Below are positions 1,409-23,241 of a stretch of DNA of 64,000 nt, in pieces (position 1 is the stretch's first letter; every line of letters begins with the position of its first letter). The stretch comes from Asterella californica (Eukaryota > Streptophyta > Marchantiopsida > Marchantiales > Aytoniaceae). A program made the position numbers and the translations under genes. The notes beneath the pieces are model-generated. The model did no database searches and was not told the origin of the DNA. It saw only the letters and a list, made by a program, of their open reading frames with translations. The stretch lies in assembly GCA_036924285.1 (NCBI GenBank), contig JAYKYS010000010.1, forward strand, positions 19,071,001 through 19,135,000, read 5' to 3'.

Positions 1409-1412
1409 TTTT

Positions 1413-1429
1413 TGGTTCCGTTGCCGGGA
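1413..1429 (+). other. Primer-binding site of B1
   Basis: TGGTTCCGTTGCCGGGA starts four bases after the LTR. It begins with the TGG that pairs with the CCA end of a tRNA and resembles the tRNA-Asp-type sites of plant gypsy elements, with TT in place of CG. It is identical in B2 and B3. The exact tRNA is not settled. Confidence 0.75.
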
Positions 1430-1454
1430 CCTCACTTGAAGGGATCGTTGAACG

Positions 1455-1625
1455 ATGTTTAGAGTTCAGTTCTATATTCGACAAAAGGAGATTATGAGAG
1501 AGCACATGGAGAGAACGTTGGGAGGAGAGAGAGCTAACGCGATGTTAGCAACGTTAGAACCTTTCGTGTATCCCGTAGTGATATATGACGCGTTCGAAGT
1601 CATTCTTTACATCTTGTTCACTTAG
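1455..1625 (+). CDS. Family B ORF0, small protein of unknown function (56 residues)
   Basis: The frame begins at the first ATG after the primer-binding site, 25 bp downstream, and reads MFRVQFYIRQKEIMREHMER at its start. The N-terminal half is charged, and the C-terminus (YPVVIYDAFEVILYILFT) is hydrophobic and might lie in or on a membrane. The ORF is preserved in B2 (19965-20135) and B3 (36450-36620), which suggests coding rather than chance. I do not recognise a family. It could instead act as an upstream ORF that limits translation of the later frames. Confidence 0.45.
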   Translation: MFRVQFYIRQKEIMREHMERTLGGERANAMLATLEPFVYPVVIYDAFEVILYILFT

Positions 1626-1689
1626 AAAGGGTTTGAGGAGAGTTGAAAGAAGGTGCAACAAGAGTTGTAGAGAAAGGAGGAGAGAAAAG

Positions 1690-2145
1690 TTATTAGAGGA
1701 GAGAAATTTGTGAGTTTAGAAATTCTGCTCTCTGGAAAATTTGTACAGTCCCTGTCAACTTTTCTGTGAATTTTATTTTCCTGTGAAACTTTCCAGTGTT
1801 TTAGATTGGCTGATAACCTATCTAAGACAAAAGAAATCATAGGAAAAGGTGGTCTAGAGAGGGAGCAATGATTTTTCAAAATTGAGGGGGTCTATTCGTG
1901 AAAGTTGAGGAATTCTGTTCTCTGGAAAAAGTTTACAGTCAGTGTCAGATTTTCTGTGAATTTTATTTTCCTGAGAAACTTTCCAGTGTTTTAGAGTGGC
2001 TGATAAGCTATCCAGGACAAAAGAAATCATGAGAAGATGAGGTCTGAAGAGGGAGAAAGGATTTTTCAAAGTGGAGGGGGTTGACAACCATGAGGGAAGT
2101 GAAAATATACAAATTTCAGTTCTCTGAAAATTTGTACAGTCATCA
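1690..2145 (+). repeat. 190-bp tandem repeat in the leader of B1 (two units plus a partial third)
   Basis: The motif ATTTTTCAAA recurs at 1871 and 2061, a period of exactly 190 bp. The surrounding blocks ending in ...CAAAAGAAATCAT also recur. B2 has three such units and B3 two. The difference accounts for the longer interior of B2. Confidence 0.9.
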
Positions 2146-2296
2146 CCATCTCTTCTGATTAGGGAAGTTTCTGTTGAAACTTCATGATTTAGTAGCTTGG
2201 AGGTTGAGCTACTGGAGACCACAAAAATCTTGGAGAGATCTCTTACCAACTAAGAGAGATACGTTTCGGCATACAAGGAGGTCTTGAAGATACGTC

Positions 2297-2614
2297 ATGG
2301 GGAATCCAGTTCGAATGACGAGGTGGAAGAAGAGACGTTTAGGAGTTCGAACAGAGACGGAGAAGCCCAAGTTAAGTATAGATGAGTTACGAACACGCAT
2401 CTATAGCACTTGGGGTGCCCTCTTTACTCTATACGAAGAAGCTTCCGCGACAATTGGCACAGATTTGAAGAAAGTCGAGTTTAAAGCATCATTCACTATG
2501 GAGGCCACGAATGCTCCTGGTGAAATAGAGTTGGATCCTTACAAGAGTGAGTTCAAGATGTCTGTTGTGATGAGTACAAACGAGGGTGAGGAGGATCATA
2601 TCTTTGATAGTTAA
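2297..2614 (+). CDS. Family B ORF1, basic N-terminus, unknown function (105 residues)
   Basis: The ATG at 2297 follows a stop-rich leader and the frame ends at a TAA at 2612. The N-terminus (RWKKRRLGVR) is strongly basic and could be a nuclear-localisation or nucleic-acid contact. The middle (ALFTLYEEASATIGTDLKK) looks helical, and the C-terminus is acidic. The frame is kept in all three copies without stops, but its sequence differs far more between copies than the rest of the element, especially in B3. No family is recognised. It is an accessory protein carried upstream of gag. Confidence 0.6.
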   Translation: MGNPVRMTRWKKRRLGVRTETEKPKLSIDELRTRIYSTWGALFTLYEEASATIGTDLKKVEFKASFTMEATNAPGEIELDPYKSEFKMSVVMSTNEGEEDHIFDS

Positions 2615-2752
2615 TATTAGATTAGATTTTATTTCGTGTATAGCATGTATAATGCACGATTTCTAATATAAAGCTCGGAAGAGTTAAGAAAGTAATGTAG
2701 AATTATTTTCCTCTATGATATTTTGTCCACTTAATGGTTGAGAAGGTGCAAC

Positions 2753-3229
2753 ATGAGTGGAAATTCAAAAGATTGGAAAGTTAGACTTAGAAACCTTCCT
2801 CAAGGTTTAGATGTCATAGTAAGCGTCGGAGAGAGCTCGAAAGAGATTATCGTTGAGTTTGAGAACCCTAGTACAAAACCTCAAGTAGAATCTCCGAGGA
2901 GAAGAGTAGAAACCGACTTGTGGTGTTATTTCTGTAGAGGGTTGGGACATAAAGTAGTGAATTGTCCAACTAGAATCAGAACCGAGAGAGCTAAAGGGAA
3001 GCGGGAGTTTACTGATTTAAGTCTTCGAGTGGGTCCATCGTCACTAGCGCCAATTCATCTTCTAGGCGAAGATCCTTGTCCAAGTTGTGGAGTGGGTGAT
3101 CTATCAAGAGGACACAAGTGCGTCGATGTGGCCGCCCTACTTACGTCAGTAGTCGAGAAGTTGGACGAGACTCAAAGAGCTGAGACGGAGAAGTTGTCGA
3201 CTTCAAAAGAGGACTCGGTTGAGTTGTGA
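2753..3229 (+). CDS. Family B ORF2, CCHC zinc-knuckle protein (158 residues)
   Basis: The first ATG is at 2753 (MSGNSKDWKVRLRNLPQGLD), and the frame stops 213 bp before gag-pol. A CX2CX4HX4C knuckle (CYFCRGLGHKVVNC) lies near residues 62-75. A second cluster, CPSCGVGDLSRGHKC, lies near 108-122. The first 45 residues may form a small domain. Zinc knuckles of this type bind RNA or single-stranded DNA, so a second nucleocapsid-like function is plausible in addition to the knuckle inside Gag. It is preserved at about 98 percent in B2 and B3. A host-derived or duplicated gag fragment is possible. Confidence 0.65.
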   Translation: MSGNSKDWKVRLRNLPQGLDVIVSVGESSKEIIVEFENPSTKPQVESPRRRVETDLWCYFCRGLGHKVVNCPTRIRTERAKGKREFTDLSLRVGPSSLAPIHLLGEDPCPSCGVGDLSRGHKCVDVAALLTSVVEKLDETQRAETEKLSTSKEDSVEL

Positions 3230-3442
3230 TGGAGATCGTCATTCGAATGGTGGAGAAGGCGGTGATGCGACTCAGACTCATGATTACCTTGGGAGAAGAG
3301 ATGGCACAAGAGGTGTTGTTACAACCATTTCCTTTCATTTTACCTATGGTAGATTATTCGCGAATGGAATTGGTGATGTTCGTACTCTTTTAGCGAGTAG
3401 TTATTGCACGACGATTAGAAGAGTAGAAAGAGTAGTTACAAG

Positions 3443-6400
3443 ATGGGAAAGCTACCCGTGTTTCATGGGAAGGACAATGAAGATGTAGAACCGTTTGTTC
3501 GAGACTTCAAAAGGGGTTGCATCGGAAACAACGTGAGAAGGAAGGAAGAATGGGTGTTGTTACTGCCAGAGTTTTTAGAAGATTTTGCTCTTACGTGGTA
3601 TGAAGACCGAGTGAAGAGCCAGACACCTGGTGCAGTTGAGGACACATGGGAGACGTTGAGTAATGCACTCATCGAAGAATTTCTTCCAGAAGAGAGTTAT
3701 GAGAAGCTCATGGTGGAGCTTACTCATTTGAAGCAACGTGACGACGAGAAAGTTCGGCAATATGCCGAAAGGGTGGATAAGTTGGAGCAACGGTTTCGGA
3801 CGGTCCTACGGAAGAGTGGAGACAATGTGGAACTAACGATGGCGGGGATTGGAGCAGTGCTGACCAAGAACTTGGTGGGAGGGTTGAGACCTTCAATTCG
3901 AACCCAAGTGAGGTACGAGAAGCCAGCAACCAAAGCGGAGGCCATCAAGATAGCGACAAATATGGAAGAGAGTTTGGATGAAGGAGATATCATCCAACCT
4001 CATCATGCTGCTCTGGTGTCAACTCCGACTCCTGGTGTAGCCACAACGATCGCACCTGCACCATCACAATTGGTGATTGCTTCAACGTCAGCTCCTACTC
4101 CAACGGTGGTGCCAAGACCGTTTGTCCCAACAACGATGTCTACTGCCACCTCTGATTTTCATGCCGAGCTGAAGAGCATCACTGACACTCTTGCGGATCT
4201 CAAGATAAACGTGGTACAGTTACGAGAATGGAGGAACAAAGGTGGAGGAGGAGGTCAAAGAGGTTACGACAACAATCCCAACCGAGGAAATCAAGGTAAC
4301 TTTGGAGGCAACCAAGGTAACTTTGGAGGAATCACTTGTTGGACGTGTGGAGGTTCTCATTTTCAGCGAAATTGTCCTAACAACGGAGCAAGAAGTGCCG
4401 AAGCTGTCAGAATGAATGTGGGTGGAGGAAATCCATCACAAGGACGAGACAAGGGGGTGGCTACTATCGATGTCGTGCGAGATCCCATCTACGAGAAAGG
4501 AGAGAGTTCAAACTCTTCTCATGCACCGGTGGAGCTTTTAGCTCAAGAAAGGAAAAGAACTCGATTTTCTGATGAACCGGTTTTCATGGAGGAATCAGCT
4601 AGTAGAAGCACTCGTTCGAGTAATGTTTCGAGTACACCAAGGGAGCCAAGAAGGAAGCTGGGGATGGCGGATTTCACCATTTCATCTTCCCAAGCGGGAT
4701 ATGATGTGGTTGAAGATGTGGGTGCTCAGAAAGCCAACATCACTGTTGGACAACTGATCGCACTTAATCCCAGCTTACGAAGGGAACTCAGAGGAGGACT
4801 GAGTTCTAAGAGAAGCAAGAAGAAGAAACCCAAGAGCAAGACGTCAAAGTCTGTGGGAGTTGGTGTGGTGGATGTGCATGCTTCAGAGGTATGCACTAGG
4901 GCTTCAAAGATTGAAGTCCGGTTGAATGGTCACTACGTCTCTGACGTATTGGTGGATGGAGGGTCGGCTGTAAACGCCATATCGGAGAGATTGATGAAGA
5001 AGTTGGGGATGGAACCAACTCGCCCGGCTAGGTTTGTCGTGGGGATGGCTAACAAGCAACGGGTAAGACCTCTTGGCGTGTTAGAGAAGGTGGTCGTGTC
5101 TGTGATGGGAGTTCAAACATTGATGTCCTTTCAAGTGTTAAAGGACTCTAGTTATGATTTGCTCCTAGGTAGGCCTTGGTTGAGAGCTGTGCGCACCACG
5201 GATAGGTGGCACAAGGGATACTTACGGATTGGGCCTAGAGATCATAGAGTGATAGTTCCTCTCTCGGGTGTTGGAGTTGTGACTTCTGACTCTGATAGAC
5301 CCACTAGTGACTACTGGGAATCTGATACGGAGGACGATCAGAGTGTCTCAGAAGTAGATACCGGCGATTCTTACGATCAAGAATCCTCGTCTGAGGACGA
5401 AGGATTTGGTCGAGATGAATCATTACATCAGCTTAGTGCTATTGACTTGTTGCCTCGACCAGCAGTGGAGAAAGATCCTGACAAAGAAGAGTTGAGTGAG
5501 GCAGAGATTGTGAGAAGACTCTCTACCTTGAAGTTTGGTATCAATGTCACTCAAGAGGAGAAAAGTAGATTCCTAGATATATTTCGAAAATATATCCATG
5601 TGTTTGCTTTCAGCTACAAGGATTTGAAGGAGGTGACTCTCGAGACTCATCGAATCGAATTGGAGGAGCACGCAAGACCAGTTCGACAGAAGCAGAGAAG
5701 GGTCAATCCCACAACGGCAATGATGGTCAAGGAGGAGATAGACAAGTTGAAGGAGGCGAGTTTCATCTATGAGATGGAGAACTCAGAATGGGTTTCACCC
5801 ATTGTGATTGTCAAGAAGAAGAATGGTAAGCTGCGAGTGTGCATAGACTATAAGAAGCTGAATGCAGTTACCAAGAAGGACTATTATCCTCTACCATTTA
5901 TAGATGAGATTTTGGAGGAAGTTGCCGGTCATGAGTGGTACAGCTTTGGTGATGGTTATAGTGGATACAACCAGATCAAGATAGCACAGGAGTACCAGCA
6001 GTTGACTACTTTCACTACTCCTTGGGGAACATTTGCATTTCGAGTGATGCCATTCGGACTGTGTAATGCTCCGGCCACGTTTCAGAGGTTCATGAACAAG
6101 GTGTTCGAACCATTCATAGGAAAGTTTGTTCGTGATTTCATTGATGATTTCTGTGTGTACGGAAGAAAGGAGGACCACTTTGATCATGTGATCAAAGTTC
6201 TGCAGCGGTTGGAGCAAGCTAACGCTTCTCTGAATCCAGAGAAGTGCATCTTTGGCTGCGAAGAAGGTCTGCTGTTAGGGCACATCATTTCCAAGAATGG
6301 GATTGCGGTAGATCCTGAAAAGGTGAAGAAGATTGTGGATCTTCCATTTCCGATCAACTTGACAAAGTTGAGGCAGTTTCTTGGCATGGTTGGATATTAT

Positions 6401-8329
6401 CGTAGGTTTGTCTTTTCCTTCTCAAACAAAGCAATAGCTTTGACTATGTACATGAAGAAGGGAGTTGATTTTGACTTGATAGTGCATGATCAGAAGGCAA
6501 AGGAAGCATTTGAGGAGCTGAAAAAGGCATTGGTGACAGCTCCTATACTTGCTAAACCTGAGTGGAGTAAAGCATTTATTCTGTATACGGATGCCTCCAA
6601 TGTAGCAATCGGATGTACATTAAGTCAGCTAGATGGAGATGGGCATGATCATCCTATAGCTTATGCTAGTAGGCAGATGGTTCCAGCGGAGAAGAATTAC
6701 TCCGTGACTGAACGAGAAGGATTAGCGGTGATCTTTGGATTGAAGAAATTCCGACATTACTTGCTAGGAGGGAAATTTTCCATAGTCACAGATCACAAGG
6801 CTTTAAAGTATATCTTTAATAAGCCTAATGCCGAAGGTCGTATTGCTCGTTGGAAGATCCTTCTAACAGAATACGATTATGTGATCGAAGATAGACCAGG
6901 GAAAAAGCATGCGAATGCTGATCTTTTGTCGAGGGCTTATGATGATGAGGGAGAAGAACCATTTGACGATTCGTTTCCAGACGAGCATCTGATGACCATC
7001 ACAAGCATTGAGGAGATACCGGACGAGTATAAGGAAATCTGGAGTTTCCTTGCAGATGGCTCTTTTCCGGAAGGTATGCATACCCGAGAACGTAACGCGT
7101 TGATCAAGAGATGCAAACCTTACACCATGGTGGAGGGAATTCTATTTCATCAAGGAGCAGATGGCTTACTAAGGAGAGCAGTTGGTCAGAAGGAGGCGTT
7201 CAAGCTGATGCACGAGTTTCACGATGGCACTGTTTGCGGAGGTCACTTTGCTGGTAAGATAACAGCTTTCAAGATTTTGGATGCGGGTTATCACTGGAGA
7301 GGGATTTTCAAGGAGTGTTTAGACTATTGCAAAACTTGCGATGTATGTCAAGCATTTGCTCTGAAGTCTACTAGAACACCTCCGTTAAGATCAATTCCAA
7401 TATTAGGACCATTTGAGAAGTGGGGTATTGACTTTGTAGGTCCTCTCAATAAGACACCTCGAGGAAATAGATACATTGTAGTCGCCACTGACTATTGTAC
7501 CAAGTGGGTAGAGGCTAGACCTTTGAGAGAGACCAATGAAACAGAAGTCGGTAGATTCTTATGGGAGAGGATCATCACCAGATTTGGATGTCCGTTAGAG
7601 TTGGTCTCGGATAGAGGAGGAGAGTTTGTAGGGAGCATGACTACTGCTATGCTACAACACTTTTCTATCAAGGCACGAGTAACGACCTCATACAAGCCAA
7701 ATGCTAATGGTCTTGCGGAGAAGACCAATCTTACACTTTGTATGATGCTTGCCAAAGATGCTGGTGTTGAGACTGCGAAACATACTTGGGATAAGAGGCT
7801 ACATGCCATCTTATGGGAGTACCGAACGACAACAAAGACTTCTACTGGGTACTCTCCATTTCGACTGGTTTATGGAGTGGAGTCCAAGTTGCCCATCCAA
7901 TTCGAATTGGATACTTTTCAAACTATTCAACGAAAGTTGAAGAGGTCGAGAGGAGAAGACGTGGTCAGATCAAGAAGGGAGCAACTCATGGAGTTGGAAG
8001 AGACCCGAGCGATAGCGATGATCCGGATGGAACGAGCTCAAGCGTATCAAAAGAAGAGTTACGACAAAAGGTTGGGCAAGAGGGAGGTAAAACCTTTTCA
8101 AGTCGGAGATTGGGTTATGTTGTATGATGCTATCAGATTCAAGAGGGCTAGGAAGAAGTTTCTTCCGAGATATTTTGGTCCTTTTGTTGTAGATAAGGTG
8201 TGGAGCAACTTCACATATGACCTTCAGGAGCTGGGAGGAAGGAGATTCGATCGGGTAAATCATGACAAGTTGAAGTTGTTTCATCAACGAAAGTTCTCTC
8301 TTCACTCCGAGGACGGAGCGAAAATTTAG
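3443..8329 (+). CDS. Family B Gag-Pol polyprotein, intact (1628 residues)
   Basis: One frame encodes, in order, a retrotransposon Gag domain (about residues 10-190), a CCHC knuckle of the CX2CX3HX4C form (CWTCGGSHFQRNC, near 300), a low-complexity basic linker, and a retropepsin with the motif LVDGGSAVNAIS (near 502), where DGG replaces DSG/DTG. Reverse transcriptase follows with FIDDF at the active site (near 900), then RNase H (LYTDASNVAIGC, near 1045). The integrase has an HHCC zinc site (near 1255-1310) and D, D, E catalytic residues in GIDFVG, SDRGGEF and NGLAEKTN. A GPF-type C-terminal module (PRYFGPFVVDKVW) closes it, with no chromodomain seen. The start is the first ATG in frame, just after ORF2. 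It drives reverse transcription and integration of the element. Confidence 0.95.
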   Translation: MGKLPVFHGKDNEDVEPFVRDFKRGCIGNNVRRKEEWVLLLPEFLEDFALTWYEDRVKSQTPGAVEDTWETLSNALIEEFLPEESYEKLMVELTHLKQRDDEKVRQYAERVDKLEQRFRTVLRKSGDNVELTMAGIGAVLTKNLVGGLRPSIRTQVRYEKPATKAEAIKIATNMEESLDEGDIIQPHHAALVSTPTPGVATTIAPAPSQLVIASTSAPTPTVVPRPFVPTTMSTATSDFHAELKSITDTLADLKINVVQLREWRNKGGGGGQRGYDNNPNRGNQGNFGGNQGNFGGITCWTCGGSHFQRNCPNNGARSAEAVRMNVGGGNPSQGRDKGVATIDVVRDPIYEKGESSNSSHAPVELLAQERKRTRFSDEPVFMEESASRSTRSSNVSSTPREPRRKLGMADFTISSSQAGYDVVEDVGAQKANITVGQLIALNPSLRRELRGGLSSKRSKKKKPKSKTSKSVGVGVVDVHASEVCTRASKIEVRLNGHYVSDVLVDGGSAVNAISERLMKKLGMEPTRPARFVVGMANKQRVRPLGVLEKVVVSVMGVQTLMSFQVLKDSSYDLLLGRPWLRAVRTTDRWHKGYLRIGPRDHRVIVPLSGVGVVTSDSDRPTSDYWESDTEDDQSVSEVDTGDSYDQESSSEDEGFGRDESLHQLSAIDLLPRPAVEKDPDKEELSEAEIVRRLSTLKFGINVTQEEKSRFLDIFRKYIHVFAFSYKDLKEVTLETHRIELEEHARPVRQKQRRVNPTTAMMVKEEIDKLKEASFIYEMENSEWVSPIVIVKKKNGKLRVCIDYKKLNAVTKKDYYPLPFIDEILEEVAGHEWYSFGDGYSGYNQIKIAQEYQQLTTFTTPWGTFAFRVMPFGLCNAPATFQRFMNKVFEPFIGKFVRDFIDDFCVYGRKEDHFDHVIKVLQRLEQANASLNPEKCIFGCEEGLLLGHIISKNGIAVDPEKVKKIVDLPFPINLTKLRQFLGMVGYYRRFVFSFSNKAIALTMYMKKGVDFDLIVHDQKAKEAFEELKKALVTAPILAKPEWSKAFILYTDASNVAIGCTLSQLDGDGHDHPIAYASRQMVPAEKNYSVTEREGLAVIFGLKKFRHYLLGGKFSIVTDHKALKYIFNKPNAEGRIARWKILLTEYDYVIEDRPGKKHANADLLSRAYDDEGEEPFDDSFPDEHLMTITSIEEIPDEYKEIWSFLADGSFPEGMHTRERNALIKRCKPYTMVEGILFHQGADGLLRRAVGQKEAFKLMHEFHDGTVCGGHFAGKITAFKILDAGYHWRGIFKECLDYCKTCDVCQAFALKSTRTPPLRSIPILGPFEKWGIDFVGPLNKTPRGNRYIVVATDYCTKWVEARPLRETNETEVGRFLWERIITRFGCPLELVSDRGGEFVGSMTTAMLQHFSIKARVTTSYKPNANGLAEKTNLTLCMMLAKDAGVETAKHTWDKRLHAILWEYRTTTKTSTGYSPFRLVYGVESKLPIQFELDTFQTIQRKLKRSRGEDVVRSRREQLMELEETRAIAMIRMERAQAYQKKSYDKRLGKREVKPFQVGDWVMLYDAIRFKRARKKFLPRYFGPFVVDKVWSNFTYDLQELGGRRFDRVNHDKLKLFHQRKFSLHSEDGAKI

Positions 8330-8332
8330 TCC

Positions 8333-8342
8333 GGGGGTAAAA
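8333..8342 (+). other. Polypurine tract of B1
   Basis: GGGGGTAAAA lies directly before the 3' LTR. The same sequence precedes the 3' LTR in B2 and B3 on the opposite strand. It would prime plus-strand synthesis. Confidence 0.75.
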
Positions 8343-9248
8343 TGTAACGACCTATGTTACACATAGGAAGTTTGTCAATTAGTAAGGTGTTTAGTTATAA
8401 CTAAGGGTTGAGAATGTTTATTTGCTGCCAAAGTACTTTTAGGAGGTATCAAGTTAGTCATGACTAGCTAAAAGTTAGTTATGGTTAAACTTAGCTGTAC
8501 TTTTGGCAGAATTCAGATATTTGCTAAAGAGTGAGCACTACTATCTTGTCATCTTGTCTAAAAGGTAGAAAGGAGGTGGAAAGTATCTCTTATCTCCTTT
8601 TTGACTTGATATTAGTGGTTGGATTAAAGTTGTGGACTTTGTGGGCATTAAAAACAAGAAGAGATTCCACATGTTTCCTTTTTAGTGGGTCCTAGTGTAG
8701 AGGGGGGGTGGAAATTCGAGATTCCTTGAGAATATTCCAGAATCCTTCTAGAAGTTGTTGACTTTGAAGGAATAAGCCCATGTGAAAAGGTAAAAAGCCC
8801 ATGTGATCAATGCTTTTACCTTAAGTAATATCTTAGTAAAACCCGGTAAAAGTAGTTACGGCTGAGTTACCGAGGGTACCAAAGTAAAAACCTAGAATGT
8901 ATAAATAGAGGAGTAGAGAAGAGCTCCTCATCCTTGTTTTCACATTGTCGTAATGACAACTTGAGTAATATAGAGAGTGTGGGACATTTTTAGCATGTGA
9001 GAACTTGAGAGACGTCGTTAGAATGGAGGATTTTAGTGGATGAGATTATGGAGATTTTAGTTGATAAGTTTGTGGGTGTATGAATGAGAGTGAACTTAGC
9101 ATTTTTCCCTTCAAGATTCATGGTGTGCTTCCATCAAAGCCATCAGAGGTGACCCCTGAGTGAGAGACAGGCCCGACAGTTGCAGATTCGTGGATGACGA
9201 TCGTGGAGGTTAAGAGATCGGGGGGTAGTTGATCGTTAGGACCGCGGA
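8343..9248 (+). repeat. 3' LTR of B1, missing its last 9 bp
   Basis: It matches the 5' LTR base for base as far as I can see, with the same spacing, until CCGCGGA at 9242-9248, where it passes directly into host sequence. The terminal GGGTTTACA is absent. Confidence 0.93.
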
Positions 9249-9339
9249 TGGCTCTATGGTGAAGACCAAGGCCATTGTTACAGCCGCAGAGTCTTATGAT
9301 GTATTGGTGGGAGGTGCTGTGTTGTACCCTATGGGGTTC
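9245..9339 (+). repeat. Downstream copy of the 95-bp host duplication
   Basis: This is the same as 399-493. It joins the truncated LTR at the shared CGGA and then runs on without a break into unique element A sequence at 9340. Confidence 0.95.
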
Positions 9340-9771
9340 GTGATTGACTATTGGGCAGAGACAGCATCTTACAGACCAGGTTGGCAGTCCGGTGAGGGAC
9401 GAGTGAGCCGCTTACCAGTGCGGTTCAGTGCTAGAGTTGGGACGACGGAGCCTACACCAGGAACGATGGCATCCGTTGCAGGGTTCAGTTCGATCATCAC
9501 TTGGCCGGACGAGTTGTTGGAGGGTAATGCCCATGCGGAGGATACTCCGATCTATGAGGAGGTGGAGGACATGCCTAGCATGTCTACGTTAATACCATCT
9601 GCCTTGGATGTGCCACTCTGGAGTTCGAGTGGAGAGTTGCAGCAGTATGCTGATCAGTTGGTGCAGCAGGCTTGGAGTGAAGCTTTTGTACCACCAGTAG
9701 AGGAACAAAGGGTTGTTCATGCTACTGACCTTGTGACCTTATCACCGTTGGATACGACTCCCATTGTGTGA
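9249..9771 (+). pseudogene. Element A, end of protease and acidic linker before the methyltransferase
   Basis: The frame continues the protease past the duplication (GFVIDYWAETASYRPGW...) into a Ser/Pro/Glu-rich stretch without a recognisable fold. It ends at TGA 9769-9771. The same frame continues with the methyltransferase directly after this stop, so the stop is probably a point mutation, for example of CGA. The linker would connect protease and methyltransferase in the polyprotein. Confidence 0.75.
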
Positions 9772-10986
9772 CAGTATCCAGAGGAAGGTGTATGTGTGCT
9801 GGAGCTGTTTGGAGGGATCAGCACAGGTTTGGCTGCGGTATTGCAGGCAGGTATACAAGTACAGCGATATTTATATGTGGAGAGAGATGAGATTGCGAGA
9901 TGCATCTCATTGCGACATGTGGCACGTTTGGTGCAGAGATATCCTGAGTTGTTGCCCATATCAGCTGTTAGAGGATACCAGCAAGCATTACCGTCGGATA
10001 TTTCGCTGCTGGGGGCGCAGGATCTTACGTTTGTGGGCACCATTCACTTGGTGATAGTCGGATGGCCATGTCAAGGTCACACGCGTGCAGGGAGAGGTCA
10101 GGGTTTACATGACCCGCGATCTAGGATGTTCTGGGAGATGTTACGGATCTTACGACATCTCCAGATGCATCAGATGGATTCTCCAGCGTACATCTTGGAG
10201 AACGTTCCTTTGTTGGGTGATGCTCGTACATAGATGATGGCGAGTGTGCACCAAGTGCGGTCTTGGATTGGACCAGCAGTGTTGTTGGATGCAGCGAGAG
10301 TAGGATCTCGTGCACATCGTCCACGGTTGTGGTGGACGAACTTGTTACCGAGAGAGGTGCTTAAGCGCGCACACGATGGAGTGAGACGACCAGCGCACCT
10401 CACGGTTGATAGCATCTTGGATGCAGGACGACGATCTCAAGTTGTGAGAGTCGTCGATAGGTCACCCATGACAGTGGTGAACCTAGTGGGACGGCCCATG
10501 GTAGCATTACCCACTTTGGTAAGCTTTCCAGCGTCACATGCTTACAGAGATGGAGGACCTGGGCTTGTGTGGGATGCTCAATTACGGCAGTTGGTGGAGC
10601 CCAATGCCGATGAGAGAGAGCAAGCGATGGGTTTCACTACGGGTACGACGGCAGTAGCTTCGGTGTCGGAGGCTTCACGTCGTCAAGTATTGGGTCAAGC
10701 AATGGACTTGAATTGCTTGACATGGATTGTTAGCCTTGGATTGGCTGAGCAGCGTCGGATGCGATCGACGGGTGTTACTGCTCGAGCACTCTTGAGCTCT
10801 TTGCCTACCGGGTCGGTGGAGGCAAAGGCTGGGGGCGAGGCACGTGGAGTTCGTCATCCTTGGACATCATGGGATGTCATAGGAGAGAGTGTGGAGTTTG
10901 CAGCTAGAACTGCAGAAGTTTTACACACAGTAGCGGTGGAGGTTGTTGCTGGTGAGCAGAAGGAAACTGCTCCAGAGGCTGCAAGA
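9772..10986 (+). pseudogene. Element A, cytosine-5 DNA methyltransferase domain
   Basis: The conserved C5-methyltransferase motifs occur in linear order. Motif I is LELFGGISTGLAAVLQAG (SAM binding, near 9797). A VERDEIAR segment fits motif II. Motif IV is VGWPCQGHTRAGRG, with the catalytic cysteine in the PC pair (near 10067). Motif VI is YILENVP (near 10190). Motif VIII is SRAHRPRLWWTNL (near 10303). ADEREQAMGF and RRQVLGQAMDLNCL (near 10606-10720) fit motifs IX and X. The unpermuted order excludes a DRM type, and the motifs look closer to DNMT3-like enzymes. The domain sits between protease and RT in one frame, so it belongs to the element. A TAG at 10231 separates motifs VI and VIII, and another at 10987 follows the domain. 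This copy is inactive. Active relatives would methylate DNA. Confidence 0.88.
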
Positions 10987-10989
10987 TAG

Positions 10990-12143
10990 CAGTCAACGAC
11001 TTCGTCTTCTACCTCTAGCATGGTGACAGAGGATACTTGGGAGCCGGAGATCGGACCCAAGCTTATAGGAGAGGAGAGACGAAGAGTCCAAAGATTCCTG
11101 AAGAGCTACAGGAATTGTTTGCCTTCAGTATGAAGGATTTGGGTACCTTGAAGGGACCTGGTATACGGATCGACTTGGCTAATGACACGTCAATCTTTCG
11201 ACGTCCTTACAGATACAGTGACATGGAGAGAGCCTTGATCCAGAGTCGGACTCAAGACTTATTGGAGGCTGGGTTGGTGGAGATGTCGCATGGAGAGTAT
11301 GCATCTGCCACAGTTATGCCAGCCAAGAAGGATATGTATGGCAACTACACGGATAGGCGGATGTGTGGAGACTACCGTCCTATCAATCGGCAAACGAAGT
11401 CCGATAAGTATGCCATGCCGACACCTGAGGAGATCTTTGATGCAGTGGGGCATGTGAAGGTCTTCAGTACTTTGGATCTTCGAGCAGGGTATCATCAGTT
11501 GCCAGTGAGAGAAGAAGATAAGTCCAAGACATCATTTTGGGGAATTGACTCTCACGGCAAGGATTGTTTGTATCAGTGGCGGTTCTTACCATTTGGGTTG
11601 AAGAACGCCCCTGCTGAGTTCCAAAGGGTGATGGACAGAATCCTAGCAGGATTGGATTTTGCCAGATGTTATATTGACGACATCTTAGTCTATAGTGCTA
11701 CAGTGGAGGAGCACGAGAGACACTTACGGGATGTGTTTGAGCGGTTGAGAGCTCATGGGTTGAAGTTACACCCTGGGAAGTGTAAGTTCTTTCCAGGAGT
11801 TGGTAGAGTATCTGGGCCACACTATCTATCCAGGTGGATTGGGTGTTCAACAGACGAAGGTTGAGGCTATTGCACGTATCCCACGCCCCACAGATGTGAG
11901 TCGAGTTTGAGCATTTGTTGGTTTGGCGAACTTCTATCGTCGATACGTGAAAGGGTTTAGTGCAATTGCGAAGCCGTTGACCAAGCTGATGAAGGTGGAC
12001 CAGGAGTGGCAGTGGGGAGATGAGCAGGAGCGAGCTTTTGTAGAGCTCAAGGATAGGTTGACATCTGCTCCCATCTTGAGGAGACCCGTTAGGGGGCGTC
12101 CTTTCCAACTGCACACCGATTGGAGTATGTTGGGACTTGGAGC
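10990..12143 (+). pseudogene. Element A, reverse transcriptase and start of RNase H
   Basis: RT motifs are clear: YASATVMPAKKD, RMCGDYRPINRQT, FSTLDLRAGYHQLPV, FLPFGLKNAPAEFQR and the active site CYIDDILVYS (near 11670). The thumb and connection (GLANFYRRYVKGFSAIAKPL) and the RNase H start (FQLHTDWSMLGLGA, with HTDWS instead of the usual TDAS) follow. A missing base near 11112, an extra base near 11793 and a TGA at 11908 break the frame. B2 cuts it after Ala in GLGA at 12143, and the frame resumes at 21096. Confidence 0.92.
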
Positions 12144-13058
12144 TGTAAACCCTCCGTGGTCCAATCGATCAACTACCCCCTCGATCTCTCAACCTCCACG
12201 ATCGTCATCCACGAATCTGCAACATGTCGGGCCTGTCTCTCACTCAGGGGTCACCTCTGATGGCTTTGATGGAAGCACACCATGAACTTGAAGGGAAAAT
12301 GCTGAGTTCACTCATTCATACACCCACAAACTTATCAACTAAAAATCTCCTTAAACACATCAACTAAAATTCTCCATTCTAACGACGTCTCTCAAGTTCT
12401 CACATGCTAAAAATATCCCACACTCTCTATATTACTCAAGTTGTCATTACGACAATGTGAAAACAAGGATGAGGAGCTCTTCTCTACTCCTCTATTTATA
12501 CATTATAGGTTTTTACTTTGGTACCCTCCGGTAACTCAGCCGTAACTACTTTTACCGGGTTTTACTAAGATATTACTTAAGGTAAAAGCATTGATCACAT
12601 GGGCTTTTTACCTTTTCACATGGGCTTATTCCTTCAAAGTCAACAACTTCTAGAAGGATTCTGGAATATTCTCAAGGAATCTCGAATTTCCACCCCCCCT
12701 CTACACTAGGACCCACTAAAAAGGAAACATGTGGAATCTCTTCTTGTTTTTAATGCCCACAAAGTCCACAACTTTAATCCAACCACTAATATCAAGTCAA
12801 AAAGGAGATAAGGGATACTTTCCACCCCCTTTCTACCTTTTAGACAAGATGACAAGATAGTAGTGCTCACTCTTTAGCAAATATCTGAATTCTGCCAAAA
12901 GTACAGCTAAGTTTAACCATAACTAACTTTTAGCTAGTCATGACTAACTTGATACCTCCTTAAAGTACTTTGGCAGCCAATAAATATTCTCAACACTTAG
13001 TTATAACTAAACACCTTACTAATAGACAAACTTCCTATGTGTAACATAGGTCGTTACA
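12144..13058 (-). repeat. 3' LTR of B2
   Basis: Read on the plus strand it runs from TGTAAACCCTCCG to GGTCGTTACA, the reverse complement of the B1 LTR. The polypurine tract follows at 13059-13068 on the minus strand. Confidence 0.95.
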
Positions 13059-13071
13059 TTTTACCCCCGGA

Positions 13072-16000
13072 CTAAATTTTCGCTCCGTCCTCGGAGTGAA
13101 GAGAGAACTTTCGTCGATGAAACAACTTCAACTTGTCATGGTTGACCCGATCGAATCTCCTTCCTCCCAACTCCTGAAGGTCATATGTGAAGTTGCTCCA
13201 CACCTTATCTACAACAAAAGGACCAAAGTACCTCGGAAGAAACTTCTTCCTAGCCCTCTTGAATCTGATAGCATCATATAACATAACCCAATCTCCAACT
13301 TGAGAAGGTTTTACCTCCCTCTTGCCCAACCGTTTGTCGTAACTCTTCTTTTGATACGCCTGAGCTCGTTCCATCCGGATCATTGCTACCGCTCGGGTCT
13401 CTTCCAACTCCATGAGTTGCTCCCTTCTTGATCTGACCACGTCTTCTCCTCTCGACCTCTTCAACTTTCGTTGAATAGTTTGAAAAGTATCCAATTCGAA
13501 TTGGATCGGCAACTTGGACTCCACTCCATAAACCAGTCGAAATGGAGAGTACCCAGTAGAAGTCTTTGTTGTCGTTTGGTACTCCCATAAGATGGCATGT
13601 AGCATCTTATCCCAAGTATGTTTCGCAGTCTCAACACCAGCATCTTTGGCGAGCATCATACAAAGTGTAAGATTGGTCTTCTCCGCAAGACCATTAGCAT
13701 TTGGTTTGTATGAGGTCGTTACTCGTGGCTTGATAGAAAAGTGTTGTAGCATAGCAGTAGTCATGCTCCCTACAAACTCTCCTCCTCTATCTGAGACCAA
13801 CTCTAACGGACATCCAAATCTTGTGATGATCCTGTCCCATAGGAATCTACCGACTTCTGTTTCATTGGTCTCTCTCAAAGGTCTAGCCTCTACCCACTTG
13901 GTACAATAGTCAGTGGCGACTACAATGTATCTATTGCCTCGAGGTGTCTTATTAAGAGGACCTACAAAGTCAATACCCCACTTCTCAAATGGTCCTAATA
14001 TTGGAATTGATCTTAACGGAGGTGTTCTAGTAGACTTCAGAGCAAATGCTTGACATACGTCACAAGTTTTGCAATAGTCTAAACACTCTTTGAAAATCCC
14101 TCTCCAGTGATAACCCGCATCCAAAATCATGAAGGCTGTTATCTTACCAGCAAAGTGATCTCCGCAAACAGTTCCGTCGTGAAACTCGTGCATTAGTTTG
14201 AATGCCTCCTTCTGACCAACTGCTCTCCTTAGTAACCCATCTGCTCCTTGATGAAACAGAATTCCCTCCACCATGGTGTAAGGTTTGCATCTCTTGATCA
14301 ACGCGTTACATTCTCGGGTATGCATACCTTCTGGAAAAGAGCCATCTACAAGGAAACTCTAGATTTCCTTGTACTCGTCCGGTATCTCCTCGATGCTTGT
14401 GATGGTCATCAGATGCTCGTCTGGAAATGAATCATCAAACGGTTCTTCTCCCTCATCATCATAAGCCCTTGACAAAAGATCAGCATTCGCATGCTTCTTC
14501 CCTGGTCTATCTTCGATCACATAATCGTATTCTGTTAGAAGGATCTTCCAACAAGCAATACGACCTTCGGCATTAGGCTTATTAAAGATATACTTTAAAG
14601 CCTTGTGATCTGTGACTATGGAAAATTTCGTGACTAGCAAGTAGTGTCGAAATTTCTTCAATCCAAAGATCACCGCTAATCCTTCTCGTTCAGTCACGGA
14701 GTAATTCTTCTCCGCTGGCACCATCTGCCTACTAGCATAAGCTATAGGATGATCATGCCCATCTTCATCTAACTGACTTAATGTACACCCGATAGCTACA
14801 TTAGAGGCATCCGTATACAGAATAAATGCTTTACTCCACTCAGGTTTAGCAAGTATAGGAGCTGTCACCAATGCCTTTTTCAGCTCCTCAAATGCTTCCT
14901 TTGCCTTCTGATCATGCACTATCAAGTCAAACTCAACTCCCTTCTTCATGTACATAGTCAAAGCTATTGCTTTGTTTGAGAAGGAAAAGACAAACCTACG
15001 ATAATATCCAACCATCCCAAGAAACTGTCTCAACTTTGTCAAGTTGATTGGAAATGGAAGATCCACAATCTTCTTCACCTTCTCAGGATCTACCGCAATC
15101 CCTTTCTTGGAAATGATGTGTCCTAACAGCAGACCTTCTTTGCAGTCAAAGATGCACTTCTCTGGATTCAGAGAAGCGTTGGCTTGCTCCAACCGCTGCA
15201 GAACTTTGATCACATGATCAAAGTGGTCCTCCTTTCTTCCGTACACACAGAAATCATCAATGAAATCACGAACAAACTTTCCTATGAATGGTTCGAACAC
15301 CTTGTTCATGAACCTTTGAAACGTGGCCGGAGCATTACACAGTCCGAATGGCATCACTCGAAAGCAAATGTTCCTCAAGGAGTAATGAAAGTAGTCAACT
15401 GTTGGTACTCTTGTGCTATCTTGATCTGGTTGTATCCACTATAACCATCACCAAAGCTGTACCACTCATGACCAGCAACTTCCTCCAAAATCTCATCTAT
15501 AAATGGTAGAGGATAATAATCCTTCTTGGTAACTGCATTCAGCTTCTTATAGTCTATGCACACTCGCAGCTTACCATTCTTCTTCTTGACAATCACAATG
15601 GGTGAAACCCATTCTGAGTTCTCCACCTCGTAGATGAAACTCGCCTCCCTCAACTTGTCTATCTCCTCCTTGACCATCATCGCTGTTGTAGGATTGACCC
15701 TTCTCTGCTTCTGTCGAACTGGTCTTGCGTTCTCCTCCAATTCGATTCGATGAGTCTCGAGGGTCACTTCCTTCAAATCCTTGTAACTGAAAGCAAACAC
15801 ATGGATATATTTTCGAAATATATCTAGGAATCTACTTTTCTCCTCTTGAGTGACATTGATACCAAACTTCAGGGTAGAGAGTCTTCTCACAATCTCTGCC
15901 TCACTCAACTCTTCTTTGTCAGGATCTTTCTCCACTGCTGGTCGAGGCAACAAGTCAATAGCACTAAGCTGATGTAATGATTCATCTCGACCAAATCCTT

Positions 16001-17957
16001 CGTCCTCAGACGAGGATTCTTGATCGTAAGAATCTCCGGTATCTACTTCTGTGACACTCTGATCATTCTCCGTATCAGATTCCCAGTAGTCACTAGTGGG
16101 TCTATCAGAGTCAGAAGTCACAACTCTAACACCCGAGAGAGGAACTATCACTCTATGATCTCTAGGCCCAATCCGTAAGTATCCCTCGTGCCACCTATCC
16201 GTGGTGCGCACAGCTCTCAACCAAGGCCTACCTAGGAGCAAATCATAACTAGAGTCCTTTAACACTTGAAAGGACATCAATGTTTGAACTCCCATCACAG
16301 ACACGACCACCTTCTCTAACACACCAAGAGGTCTTACCCGTTGCTTGTTAGCCATCCCCACGACAATGCTAGCCGGGCGAGTTGGTTCCATTCCCAACTT
16401 CTTCATCAACCTCTCCGATATGGCGTTTACAGCCGACCCTCCATCCACCAATACGTCAGAGACGTAGTGACCATTCAATCGGACTTCAATCTTTGAAGCC
16501 CTAGTGCATACCTCTGAAGCATGCACATCCACCACACCAACTCCCACAGACTTTGACGTCTTGCTCTTGGGTTTCTTCTTCTTGCTTCTCTTAGAACTCA
16601 GTCCTCCTCTGAGTTCCCTTCGTAAGCTGGGATTAAGTGCGATCAGTTGTCCAACAGTGATGTTGGCTTTCTGAGCACCCACATCTTCAACCACATCATA
16701 TCCCGCTTGGGAAGATGAAATGGTGAAATCCGCCATCCCCAGCTTCCTTCTTGGCTCCCTTGGTGTACTCGAAACATTACTCGAACAAGTACTTCTACTT
16801 GCTGACTCCTCCATGAAAACCGGTTCATCAGAAAATCGAGTTCTTTTCCTTTCTTGAGCTAAAAGCTCCACCGGTGCATGAGAAGAGTTTAAACTCTCTC
16901 CTTTCTCGTAGATGGGATCTCGCACGACATCGATAGTAGCCACCCCCTTGTCTCGTCCTTGTGATGGATTTCCTCCACCCACATTCATTCTGACAGCTTC
17001 GGCACCTCTTGCTCCGTTGTTAGGACAATTTCGCTGGAAATGAGAACCTCCACACGTCCAACAAGTGATTCCTCCAAAGTTACCTTGGTTGCCTCCAAAG
17101 TTACCTTGATTTCCTCGGTTGGGATTGTTGTCGTAACCTCTTTGACCTCCTACTCCACCTTTGTTCCTCCATTCTCGTAACTGCACCACGTTTATCTTGA
17201 GATCCGCAAGAGTATCGGTGATGCTCTTCAGCTCGGCATGAAAATCAGAGGTGGCAGTAGACATCGTTGTTGGGACAACCGGTCTTGACACCACCGTTGG
17301 AGTAGGAGCTGACGTTGAAGCAATCACCAATTGTGATGGTGCAGGTGCGATCGTTGTGGCTACACCAAGAGTCGGAGTCGACACCAGAGCAGCATGATGA
17401 GGTTGGATGATATCTCCTTCATCCAAACTCTCCTCCATGTTTGTCGCAATCTTGATGGCCTCCGCTTTGGTTACTGGCTTCTCGTACCTCACTTGGGTTC
17501 GAATTGAAGGCCTCAACCCTCCCACCAAGTTCTTGGTCAACACTGCTCCAATCCCTGCCATCGTTAGCTCCACATTGTCTCCACTCTTCCGTAGGACCGT
17601 CCGAAACCGTTGCTCCAACTTATCCACCCTTTCGGCATATTGCCGAACTTTCTCGTCGTCCCGTTGCTTCAAATGAGTAAGCTCCACCATGAGCTTCTCA
17701 TAACTCTCTTCTGGAAGAAATTCTTCGATGAGTGCATTACTCAACGTCTCCCATGTGTCCTCAACTGCACTAGGTGTCTGACTCTTCACTCGGTCTTCAT
17801 ACCACGTAAGAGCAAAATCTTCTAAAAACTCTGGCAGTAACAACACCCATTCTTCCTTCCTTCTCACGTTGTTTCCGATGAAACCTCTTTTGAAGTCTCG
17901 AACAAATGGTTCTACATCTTCATTGTCCTTCCCATGAAACACGGGTAGCTTTCCCAT
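13072..17957 (-). pseudogene. B2 Gag-Pol, broken by two stops and a 1-bp deletion
   Basis: It aligns with the B1 polyprotein throughout, in the same domain order. Comparison with B1 shows a TGG-to-TGA change at 15375-15377 (Trp of the RT motif TPWGTF), loss of one base near 15363, and a TGG-to-TAG change at 14359-14361 after RNase H. Gag, protease and the first half of RT remain open (15375-17957). RT to RNase H (14359-15378) and integrase (13072-14325) remain as separate open pieces. The copy could not make a full polyprotein. Confidence 0.95.
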
Positions 17958-18170
17958 CTTGTTACTACTCTTTCTACTCTTCTAATCGTCGTGCAATAAC
18001 TACTCGCTAAAAGAGTACGAACATCACCAATTCCATTCGCGAATAATCTACCATAGGTAAAATGAAAGGAAATGGTTGTAACAACACCTCTTATGCCATC
18101 TCTTCTCCCAAGGTAATCATGAGTCTGAGTCGCATCACCGCCTTCTCTACCATCCGAATGACGATCTCCA

Positions 18171-18647
18171 TCACAACTCAGCCGAGTCCTCTTTTGAAGT
18201 CGACAACTTCTCCGTCTCAGCTCTTTGAGTCTCGTCCAACTTCTCGACTACGGACGTAAGTAGGGCGGCCACATCGACGCACTTGTGTCCTCTTGATAGA
18301 TCACCCACTCCACAACTTGGACAAGGATCTTCTCCTAGAAGATGAATTGGCGCTGGTGACGATGGACCCACTCGAAGACTTAAATCCGTAAACTCTCGCT
18401 TCCCTTTAGCTCTCTCGGTTCTGATTCTAGTTGGACAATTCACTACTTTATGTCCCAACCCTCTACAGAAATAACACCACAAGTCGGTTTCTACTCTTCT
18501 CCTCGGAGATTCTACTTGAGATTTTGTACTAGGGTTCTCAAACTCAACGATAATCTCTTTCGAGCTCTCTCCGACGCTTACTATGACATCTAAACCTTGA
18601 GGAAGGTTTCTAAGTCTAACTTTCCAATCTTTTGAATTTCCACTCAT
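18171..18647 (-). CDS. B2 ORF2, zinc-knuckle protein
   Basis: This is an intact 158-residue counterpart of the B1 frame at 2753-3229, with only a few replacements (for example Leu to Pro in the SSxAPIHLL stretch). Both zinc clusters are complete. It lies directly upstream of the B2 gag-pol. Confidence 0.65.
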   Translation of the reverse strand: MSGNSKDWKVRLRNLPQGLDVIVSVGESSKEIIVEFENPSTKSQVESPRRRVETDLWCYFCRGLGHKVVNCPTRIRTERAKGKREFTDLSLRVGPSSPAPIHLLGEDPCPSCGVGDLSRGHKCVDVAALLTSVVEKLDETQRAETEKLSTSKEDSAEL

Positions 18648-18785
18648 GTTGCACCTTCTCAACCATTAAGTGGACAAAATATCATAGAGGAAAATAATTC
18701 TACATTACTTTCTTAACTCTTCCGAGCTTTATATTGAAAATCGTGCATTATACATGCTGTACACGAAATAAAATCTAATCTAAAG

Positions 18786-19103
18786 TTAACTATCGAAGAT
18801 ATGATCCTCCTCACCATCGTTTGTACTCATCACAACAGACATCTTGAACTCACTCTTATAAGGATCCAACTCTACTTCACTAGGAGCATTCGTGGCCTCC
18901 ACAGTGAATGATGCTTTCATCTCGGTTTTCTTCAAATCTGCGCCAATGGTCGCGGAAGCTTCTTGGTATAGGGTAAAGAGGGCACCCCAAGTAGTATAGA
19001 TAAGTGTTCGCAACTCATCTACACTTAACTTTGGCTTCTCCGACTCCGTTCGAACTCCTAAACGTCTCTTCTTCCACCTCGTCATTCGAACTGGATTCCC
19101 CAT
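18786..19103 (-). CDS. B2 ORF1, unknown function
   Basis: This is an intact 105-residue counterpart of the B1 frame at 2297-2614. I count about 12 residue differences from B1, many more than expected from the near-identical Gag-Pol. The basic N-terminus RWKKRRLGVR is unchanged. The ATG at 19103 matches the B1 start. Confidence 0.6.
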   Translation of the reverse strand: MGNPVRMTRWKKRRLGVRTESEKPKLSVDELRTLIYTTWGALFTLYQEASATIGADLKKTEMKASFTVEATNAPSEVELDPYKSEFKMSVVMSTNDGEEDHIFDS

Positions 19104-19330
19104 AAAGTATCTACGAGACCTCCTTGTATGCCAAAACGTATATCTCTTAGTTGGTAAGAGATCTCTCCAAGATTTTTGTGGTCTCCAGTAGCTCAACCTC
19201 CAAGCTACTAAATCATGAAGTTTCAACAGAAACTTCCCTACTCAGAAGAGATGGTGATGACTGTACAAATTTTCAGAGAACTGAAATTTGTATATTTTCA
19301 CTTCCCTCATGGTTGTCAACCCCCTCCATT

Positions 19331-19900
19331 TTGAAAAATCCTTTCTCCCTCTTCAGACCTCATCTTCTCATGATTTCTTTTGTCTTGGATAGCTTATCAG
19401 CCACTCTAAAACACTGGAAAGTTTCTCAGGAAAATAAAATTCATAGAAAATCTGACACTGACTGTAAACTTTTTCCAGAGAAAAGAATTCCTCAACTCTC
19501 ACGAATAGACCCCCTCAACTTTGAAAAATCATTGCTCCCTCTCTAGACCACCTTTTCCTATCATTTCTTTTGTCTTAGATAGGAAATCAGCCAATCTAAA
19601 ACACTGGAAAGTTTCTCAGGAAAATAAAATTCACAGAAAATCTGACAATGACTGTAAACTTTTTCCAGAGAACAGAATTCCTCAACTCTCACGAATAGAC
19701 CTCCTCAACTTTGAAAAATCATTGCTCACTCACTAGACCACCTTTTCCTATGATTTCTTTTGTCTTAGATAGGCTATCAGCCAATCTAAAACACTGGAAA
19801 GTTTCACAGGAAAATAAAATTCACAGAAAAGTTGACAGCGACTGTACAAATTTTCCAGAGAGCAGAATTTCTAAACTCACAAATTTCTCTCCTCTAATAA
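19331..19900 (-). repeat. 190-bp tandem repeat in the leader of B2 (three units)
   Basis: TTGAAAAATC recurs at 19331, 19521 and 19711, a constant 190-bp step. There is one unit more than in B1 and B3. Confidence 0.92.
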
Positions 19901-19964
19901 CTTTTCTCGCCTCCTTTCTCTACAACTCTTATTGCACCTTCTTTCAACTCCCCTCAAACCTTTT

Positions 19965-20135
19965 CTAAGTGAACAAGATGTAAAGAATGACTTCGAACGC
20001 GTCATATATCACAACGGGATACACGAAAGGTTCTAGTGTTGCTAACATCGCGTTAGCTCTCTCTCCTCCCAACATTCTCTCCATGTGCTCTCTCATAATC
20101 TCCTTTTGTCGAATATAGAACTGAACTCTAAACAT
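19965..20135 (-). CDS. B2 ORF0, small protein of unknown function
   Basis: This 56-residue frame matches B1 ORF0 except for about one replacement (ERTLGG to ERMLGG). It lies between the primer-binding site and the tandem repeat. Its function is unknown. Confidence 0.45.
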   Translation of the reverse strand: MFRVQFYIRQKEIMREHMERMLGGERANAMLATLEPFVYPVVIYDAFEVILYILFT

Positions 20136-20159
20136 TTTCAATGATCCCTTCAAGTGAGG

Positions 20160-20176
20160 TCCCGGCAACGGAACCA
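20160..20176 (-). other. Primer-binding site of B2
   Basis: The minus strand reads TGGTTCCGTTGCCGGGA, the same as in B1, four bases inside the 5' LTR. Confidence 0.75.
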
Positions 20177-20180
20177 AAAA

Positions 20181-23070: not shown

Positions 23071-23241
23071 CGGAGATAGTCGATTAGATCTTTGCGTGGT
23101 ATGGATTGCAGACAGGCGACTAACGATGGGGCAATGTAGCACCCGGCCTCCTGATCCTTGCACCCATGAAGGTGTGTATCACGTAGTTGGGATATGGAGC
23201 TATCTGGAGTTAGAGGGACCTAACCGCCAGTTAGGGGGGCG

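Follow-up and report, generated by a model that had tools for sequence, protein, structure and literature searches.

The window, i.e., the whole stretch of 64,000 nucleotides of Asterella californica DNA analysed here, carries at positions 9772-10986 of its forward strand a domain assigned to the DNMT3-type C5 cytosine DNA methyltransferases (DNMTs), together with its tail; the assignment draws on the profile PF00145, on the structure and PDB match of the intact domain, and on copies elsewhere in the genome. The domain is part of a Ty3/Gypsy-type retrotransposon, here called element A, which lies in the window on the forward strand in three pieces (1-493, 9242-12143 and 21096-23752). The first piece (1-493) is the protease part of a Gag-protease frame, is 99% identical by blastn to positions 3879-4371 of the intact copy L013, and contains the catalytic protease motif LLDSGA at about nucleotide 221. 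This copy begins about 3.8 kb before the first letter of the window, where its A1 repeat is found (G000:C2:19067163).

The first interruption (494-9241, forward strand) is an ordinary LTR Gypsy element, element B, with LTR repeats at 494 and 8343 and its own Gag-protease-RT-RNase H-integrase frame at 3419-8329 (Pfam matches on 3419-8326). On both sides of it stand copies of a 98-nt stretch of element A (396-493 and 9242-9339, identical at 97 of 98 positions), in the place where a short target duplication would be expected. Behind it follow the remaining protease region and the linker to the DNMT (9242-9771, recognized by homology to the intact Gag-protease frame), the DNMT domain and tail, a TAG stop with the nucleotides CAGTCA, a CARYYA context, that ends the Gag-protease-DNMT frame (10987-10995), and the reverse transcriptase (RT) with the start of RNase H (10990-12143; RVT_1 E 1.8e-29 on 11019-11861, and blastn). 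A second copy of element B, recognized by its inverted repeats, occupies 12144-21095 on the reverse strand, with a 4-base target overlap (L013 coordinates 7172-7175 in both flanks). The last piece of element A contains the rest of RNase H, the integrase and the 3′ end of the second frame (21096-23241, blastn 97%; RT_RNaseH, H2C2 and rve matches fall within 21044-22810), followed by the terminal repeats B1 (23242-23349, 108 nt), A2 (23352-23645, 294 nt, beginning TGTCAC in the compared copies) and B2 (23645-23752, 108 nt), the last of which ends in ACGACA, the 3′ end of the element. Further downstream, LTR-like direct repeats (26064-27361 and 38711-40008, about 95-96% identical) bracket another element, in which a frame at 28518-29519 matches DUF4100 (E 3.7e-7) and an additional copy of element B is nested near 29.7-37.6 kb.

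This copy of element A is dead, as the original prediction had said: in-frame stops stand at 9769-9771 (TGA) and at 10231-10233 (TAG, which breaks the DNMT domain), and the two copies of element B have been inserted on either side of the DNMT stretch in opposite orientations. The DNMT had also been described as in frame with a protease upstream and an RT downstream. On the upstream side, the DNMT frame does run through 9242-9768, which is homologous to the intact Gag-protease frame, but the catalytic LLDSGA is separated from it by element B, and 9229-9768 searched alone had no Pfam match. On the downstream side, the frame meets the TAG at 10987-10989 and the RT (11019-11861) lies in another phase in the window, whereas it is in phase behind the same TAG in intact copies.

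Intact copies of element A in the genome

The genome searched comprises 516.7 Mb in 773 contigs. With positions 9772-10230 as query, 150 places were scored from 2,975 candidates, all at 96-100% identity and with the window's own place included; thus, the window stretch represents more than chance. Genome copies do carry the DNMT, which is not unique to the window, although a capture at this one place had been considered. In 48 of the 150 places the query lies in an open frame of 1,363-1,383 amino acids without inner stops; some of the other scored copies have stops or short frames. The junction at the end of the DNMT frame was also searched with a pattern that tolerated up to three mismatches and any codon in place of the stop; it matched 1,514 places (731 + 783), and the reversed control matched 0. 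Twenty stretches of 10 kb, selected for long or intact frames, were taken for the anatomy of the element. In all 20, the DNMT stands at the end of a frame of 1,369-1,383 amino acids that is followed by TAG, and in 10 of them a frame of 1,041 amino acids, from RT to a PHD finger, continues in phase behind the stop. Thus, a C5 methyltransferase between the protease and the RT of a Gypsy element, as originally proposed, agrees with the domain order of intact copies, but its placement inside a single polyprotein has to be given up: a UAG stands between DNMT and RT, and the DNMT belongs to the Gag-protease product.

The first frame contains, in order, two zinc-knuckle-like CCHC motifs (Gag), the protease region and the DNMT, of which Pfam names only the DNMT; a separate Pfam search of the protease stretch in an intact copy gave no match. 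The related proteins P0019 and P0029 match aspartyl-protease models, and an AF2 model of the protease region (pLDDT 72.6) matches the retroviral-protease-like domains of Ddi1 (best 5yq8, E 4.4e-5), from which a retropepsin fold is predicted. The second frame contains RT, RNase H, H2C2 and rve and closes with the PHD finger (PF00628, E 6.7e-11). Sixteen aligned proteins all keep the integrase residues D697, D757 and E792, and the eight zinc ligands of the finger show at least 90% conservation among them. The PDB sequence relatives of this finger include those of what we take to be CHD4, KMT2C, DPF2, PHF12 and KDM5B (some of these gene symbols being assigned from PDB molecule names), and several such PHD fingers read histone H3 that is unmethylated at K4. 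The presence of Gag and the order protease-RT-RNase H-integrase, with an integrase of the DDE type, are those of Ty3/Gypsy elements.

The ends of element A are less ordinary. Its repeats are arranged as A1(294)-coding-B1(108)-GC-A2(294)-B2(108), i.e., as split direct repeats that start with TGTCAC and end with ACGACA, rather than as a plain LTR-internal-LTR layout. The ends are of the TG...CA type, inspection by eye of the sequence behind A1 showed no tRNA primer site, and the segment B1-GC-A2 resembles the two ends of the element joined head to tail. Split repeats are also found in DIRS elements, which carry a tyrosine recombinase instead of a DDE integrase; element A has an rve integrase, and five of the six testable copies (L013, L016, L020, L026 and L028, the exception being L022) are flanked by identical 4-bp target duplications. 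One of these, L028, consists of A1-coding-B only, lacking B1-A2, and still has matching 4-bp duplications; it is probably the result of a deletion between the B repeats, or else a different integration product. A1 and A2 are identical in six of the 13 copies that allowed a comparison, in some of them over part of the length only, and at least 97.9% identical in the others, so these insertions are recent.

The methyltransferase domain and its relatives

Positions 9772-10230 match PF00145 with E 5.2e-9 and 36.4 bits (cut-off 22), and no Pfam family matched 10234-10986 alone. The characteristic motifs nevertheless run in order across the two pieces, as had been claimed for them: LELFGGISTGL, PCQ, ENV, AHRPR and LGQAMDLN, which we take to be motifs I, IV, VI, VIII and X. 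The best sequence relatives in the PDB are DNMT3A and DNMT3B (6brr, E 7e-11), in whose alignment PC, ENV and AHRxR coincide; a weaker match (E 2e-4) is 4onj, a DNA methyltransferase from a plant and presumably a DRM. An AF2 model of the DNMT from an intact copy (pLDDT 80.5) matches the DNMT3A-DNMT3L-CpG DNA structure 6f57 (E 8.9e-21, TM 0.85 by target), and a DNMT3 fold is accordingly predicted by the model.

A tree was calculated from 37 rows: 31 element rows, the host DNMT3, human DNMT3A (in parts), three rows from viral contigs (L031, L032 and L041) and one from Streptomyces (L050), the last four serving as the outgroup with a midpoint root. Some rows are long and uneven composition was flagged for four, including the host DNMT3, so its groupings should be read with this caution. 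All 31 element rows group together (95/79, i.e., not fully supported) and join the host DNMT3 and human DNMT3A against the viral-contig and Streptomyces rows (97/96), while the host DNMT3 pairs with human DNMT3A (100/99). Thus, the element enzyme is probably no recent capture from the DNMT3 of this host, and derivation of the DNMT from the present host is unsupported. Two host genes were noted in the same genome: L051, read as an intron-bearing DNMT3 gene, and L052, read as a DRM with rearranged motifs. Together with the nearest named relatives of the element, which come from liverworts and Sphagnum, these genes point to a bryophyte as the host and not to a charophyte. Unlike L052, the element A domain has motifs that are not rearranged and lies in the DNMT3 branch. 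Profile and tree, which had been called for together with the original prediction, and the predicted structure all place it with DNMT3 and not outside the C5 methyltransferases; on sequence and model, element A encodes a predicted C5 cytosine DNA methyltransferase of the DNMT3 branch.

Three protein searches returned 52, 137 and 295 matches, from which the best 120 of the 137 and the best 120 of the 295 were examined. Among the matches listed, the named sources include Marchantia polymorpha (72%), Calypogeia fissa, Riccia sorocarpa, Sphagnum species, Closterium and Volvox, the nearest being the liverworts and Sphagnum, and many further relatives are metagenomic. The Volvox protein P0213 covers the integrase-PHD part and also matches the DNMT, at 28% over 58% of its length. 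Of 289 collected proteins, 212 have a DNMT match, and the position of the enzyme varies: in 22 of the 289, including P0037 and P0039, the order is RT-RNase H-DNMT-integrase-PHD, a second position for the enzyme, and P0033 (with a PHD finger) and P0034 (no PHD detected) have protease, DNMT, RT, RNase H and integrase in one frame. P0037 and P0039 continue for several hundred residues behind the PHD finger without an identified domain. The rows that end behind the DNMT (L012, L054, L046, P0001, P0005, P0018, P0019, P0029, P0055 and P0087) fall in one tree group of 15 with weak support (82/59), the rows outside that group having been only partly checked for their end. Fifteen matches from viral contigs were weak (26-48%) and were taken as phage-type enzymes, outside the element A family.

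A search of GTDB genomes gave four Streptomyces loci and one true relative, L046, a contig (CADCWO010000201.1) filed under a cyanobacterial (Synechococcales) metagenome-assembled genome that encodes a DNMT-bearing retroelement of eukaryotic type and is probably eukaryotic contamination. The ends of this contig overlap by exactly 127 nt, so that it closes into a circle, which may be an assembly effect of terminal repeats or a real circle.

The domain could be a passenger or a decayed capture without function. The window copy is dead and some of the scored copies have stops or short frames, as such a reading would have it, but the pattern of substitutions makes it very improbable. Between subfamilies, compared as single copies (L012 against L053 and L054, at dS of about 0.2), dN/dS is 0.16 and 0.14 in the DNMT core, close to the 0.17 and 0.16 of the protease side, and 0.64 and 0.74 in the tail behind motif X; in addition, conservation of the PC and EN columns is at least 90% across 36 relatives, whose identity is 32-79%. 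For the RT behind the stop, the L012/L054 comparison gave dN/dS 0.06, and the downstream value of 0.52 for L053 was set aside, as that stretch is out of phase in L053. Among 26 near-identical copies pN/pS is 0.38, a figure less telling than the comparison of subfamilies. Judged from the sequences of its copies, the DNMT core is under purifying selection.

The stop codon behind the methyltransferase

The stop that ends the Gag-protease-DNMT frame is uniform. In 98 of 100 listed places among the 1,514 junctions it is TAG (AAG and GAG occurring once each), a uniformity that partly reflects the shared descent of young copies. In 36 of 36 stretches, representing 33 different places including the window's own, the TAG is followed by CAGTCA (35) or CAATCA (1), and common descent alone could likewise explain this among young copies. 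In the window as a whole, four of 1,764 TAG trinucleotides precede CARYYA, the stop at the end of the DNMT being among the four. L046, whose identity to element A is 49% for the DNMT and 63% for the RT, shares the two-frame layout and carries TAG CAATCA at the corresponding position; the codons neighbouring the stop differ between the two elements while CARYYA is kept. The six nucleotides CAR YYA have been reported as essential for readthrough behind UAG (PMC2754532).

Thus, element A combines UAG and CARYYA with an in-phase, selected frame behind the stop, and the arrangement is conserved in one distant relative (L046). The dN/dS of 0.06 behind the stop implies that the RT frame has been translated, and the UAG is likely to be read through into the RT-integrase frame, as far as its context indicates. 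Of the 55 relatives with a protease followed by a DNMT and no further domain, 40 of which were examined, at least 24 end 57-138 residues behind the DNMT, a number limited by gene calls and contig ends.

It is also conceivable, if unlikely, that the stop is a true terminator and that RT-integrase is made by reinitiation at a downstream ATG or by splicing out of the stop. An in-frame ATG does lie ten codons behind the stop in L012, several Marchantia gene models (P0003, P0009 and P0010) join both frames without a stop, and the second frames of relatives are listed as separate proteins with an initial M (P0176, P0178 and, from a transcriptome, P0175), although gene callers would list them so anyway. 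Neither reinitiation nor splicing, however, needs the second frame to be in phase, as it is in L046 and wherever the frame is intact among the 20 copies (10 of them), nor CARYYA directly behind the TAG, which L046 has kept at 49% protein identity.

A proposed role and its relation to known systems

The reading that we regard as probable is that the window stretch is the broken DNMT3-type domain of a Ty3/Gypsy-type element which, when intact, carries this domain at the end of the Gag-protease frame before a likely read-through UAG, so that the enzyme would be made at the level of Gag, packaged, and predicted to methylate the element's own cDNA. The DNMT is fused to Gag and protease and ends before the RT. 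Readthrough at such stops is usually a few per cent, and at that rate the DNMT would be made at the Gag level. The protease of the element would release the DNMT from the Gag-protease-DNMT product, and the DNMT, packaged in the particle, may act on the double-stranded cDNA before integration, probably at CG by analogy with DNMT3. The PHD finger of the integrase would steer insertion to chromatin that lacks H3K4 methylation. Newly inserted copies would then be methylated from the start and lie in silent chromatin, which may spare the host damage and keep the element hidden.

As a point against this reading, a clear methylation footprint was not found in the sequence, as judged from the context of C/T differences among 27 copies and from CG ratios: C/T differences among the 27 different copies affect 2.4% of CG, 2.2% of CHG and 1.8% of CHH sites, CG being only slightly commoner, and the observed/expected ratio of CG is 0.68-0.78 in the coding parts of element A versus 0.69 in element B, which has no DNMT.

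The enzyme may instead act in trans on host, competing or viral DNA, as a means of host re-programming or antiviral defence, a reading that we consider doubtful. DNMT3-type enzymes methylate nuclear DNA, and an enzyme made at the level of Gag would be plentiful. De Mendoza et al. 2018 discussed how the host methylome may be affected (PMC5890265), and antiviral defence by a transposon-encoded methylase has been a matter of speculation (PMC6338049). However, in all 20 long-frame copies the DNMT shares one frame with Gag and protease, which would tie it to the particle where the cDNA would form, and the dN/dS of the DNMT core (0.14) is near that of the protease side (0.16), as expected if the element itself needs the enzyme. 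Element A can be compared with several known systems.

The closest is KnitGypsy-Dnmt3 of the charophyte Klebsormidium nitens, for which acquisition in the K. nitens lineage was inferred by de Mendoza et al. 2018 (PMC5890265). Both elements have Gypsy domains, a Dnmt3-type DNMT without rearranged motifs, DIRS-like A-coding-B-A-B repeats and a DNMT under purifying selection (Ka/Ks < 0.2 in KnitGypsy-Dnmt3, dN/dS 0.14-0.16 in element A). They differ in that the DNMT of KnitGypsy-Dnmt3 is described inside the Pol polyprotein frame, whereas that of element A closes the Gag-protease frame before a stop of the leaky type, in host, element A being found in a bryophyte, and in number, KnitGypsy-Dnmt3 having fewer copies than the Symbiodinium elements and element A about 1,500 junctions. 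The likeness is judged from layout, no row named for K. nitens being among the matches listed. By this analogy, element A shares the layout of KnitGypsy-Dnmt3 and would work alike, set apart by the DNMT in its Gag-protease frame. The DNMT of KnitGypsy-Dnmt3 was without activity in yeast, in an assay that its authors called inconclusive, and the words "PHD" and "readthrough" are absent from the main text of that paper on a word search (PMC5890265). The kinship to a charophyte group suggested by the original prediction is borne out by this layout; the nearest named relatives, however, are liverworts and Sphagnum.

SymbioDIRS-Dnmt3 of the dinoflagellate Symbiodinium resembles the element A family in its Dnmt3-type DNMT, its split repeats and its two domain orders, and carries the DNMT in Pol (PMC5890265); it is a DIRS element with a tyrosine recombinase, whereas element A has an rve (DDE) integrase and 4-bp target duplications. 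The methyltransferases of dinoflagellate retrotransposons and of the one charophyte were read as independent captures (PMC5890265), and DNMT3 members in retrotransposons of streptophytes and dinoflagellates have also been mentioned by Sarre et al. 2025 (PMC12344493). The readthrough side of the proposal has its counterpart in the TMV-type signal UAG-CAR-YYA, for which rice RIRE2 has been cited as a candidate (PMC2754532). Element A has UAG followed by CAGTCA or CAATCA and an in-phase continuation; TMV-type readthrough has been shown for plant viruses and is predicted for element A, in which the product that the stop separates ends in a methyltransferase. Among the titles and passages searched, which include few subscription papers, no publication was found that deals with DNMT-bearing Gypsy elements of bryophytes, with a stop behind the DNMT of such elements or with PHD fingers on their integrases, and word searches of PMC10508981 and PMC6317226 found neither "methyltransferase" nor "PHD".

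For the integrase, the comparison is with chromoviruses, i.e., Ty3/Gypsy elements with a chromodomain at the integrase end. Like these, element A has a chromatin-reader domain at the C-terminus of the integrase; unlike them, it has a PHD finger in place of the chromodomain, and a DNMT in addition.

The named relatives in Marchantia, Calypogeia, Riccia, Sphagnum, Closterium and Volvox make the lineage look wider than the Klebsormidium case, which suggests one old lineage rather than an event confined to Klebsormidium. A broader reading, put forward tentatively, is that this is an ancient and still abundant class of the green lineage (bryophytes, Closterium, Volvox and many metagenomes) which combines DNMT3 at capsid dosage, via UAG-CARYYA, with a histone-reading PHD finger on the integrase, and which would pre-methylate its cDNA, enter silent chromatin and silence itself on arrival, a strategy of stealth and not of escape from silencing. 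Gag-level dosage is not needed throughout the family, as the joined DNMT-RT frames of P0033 and P0034 and the 22 DNMTs between RNase H and integrase imply.

Transposons encoding DNA methylases have been stated to be absent from land plants such as tracheophytes (PMC6338049); the genome of this land plant holds about 1,500 places that match element A. The relatives in liverworts and Sphagnum point to experimentally tractable hosts such as Marchantia, and the leaky-stop layout makes it testable, through dosage and the methylation state of the cDNA, why an element that is itself targeted by methylation carries the enzyme.
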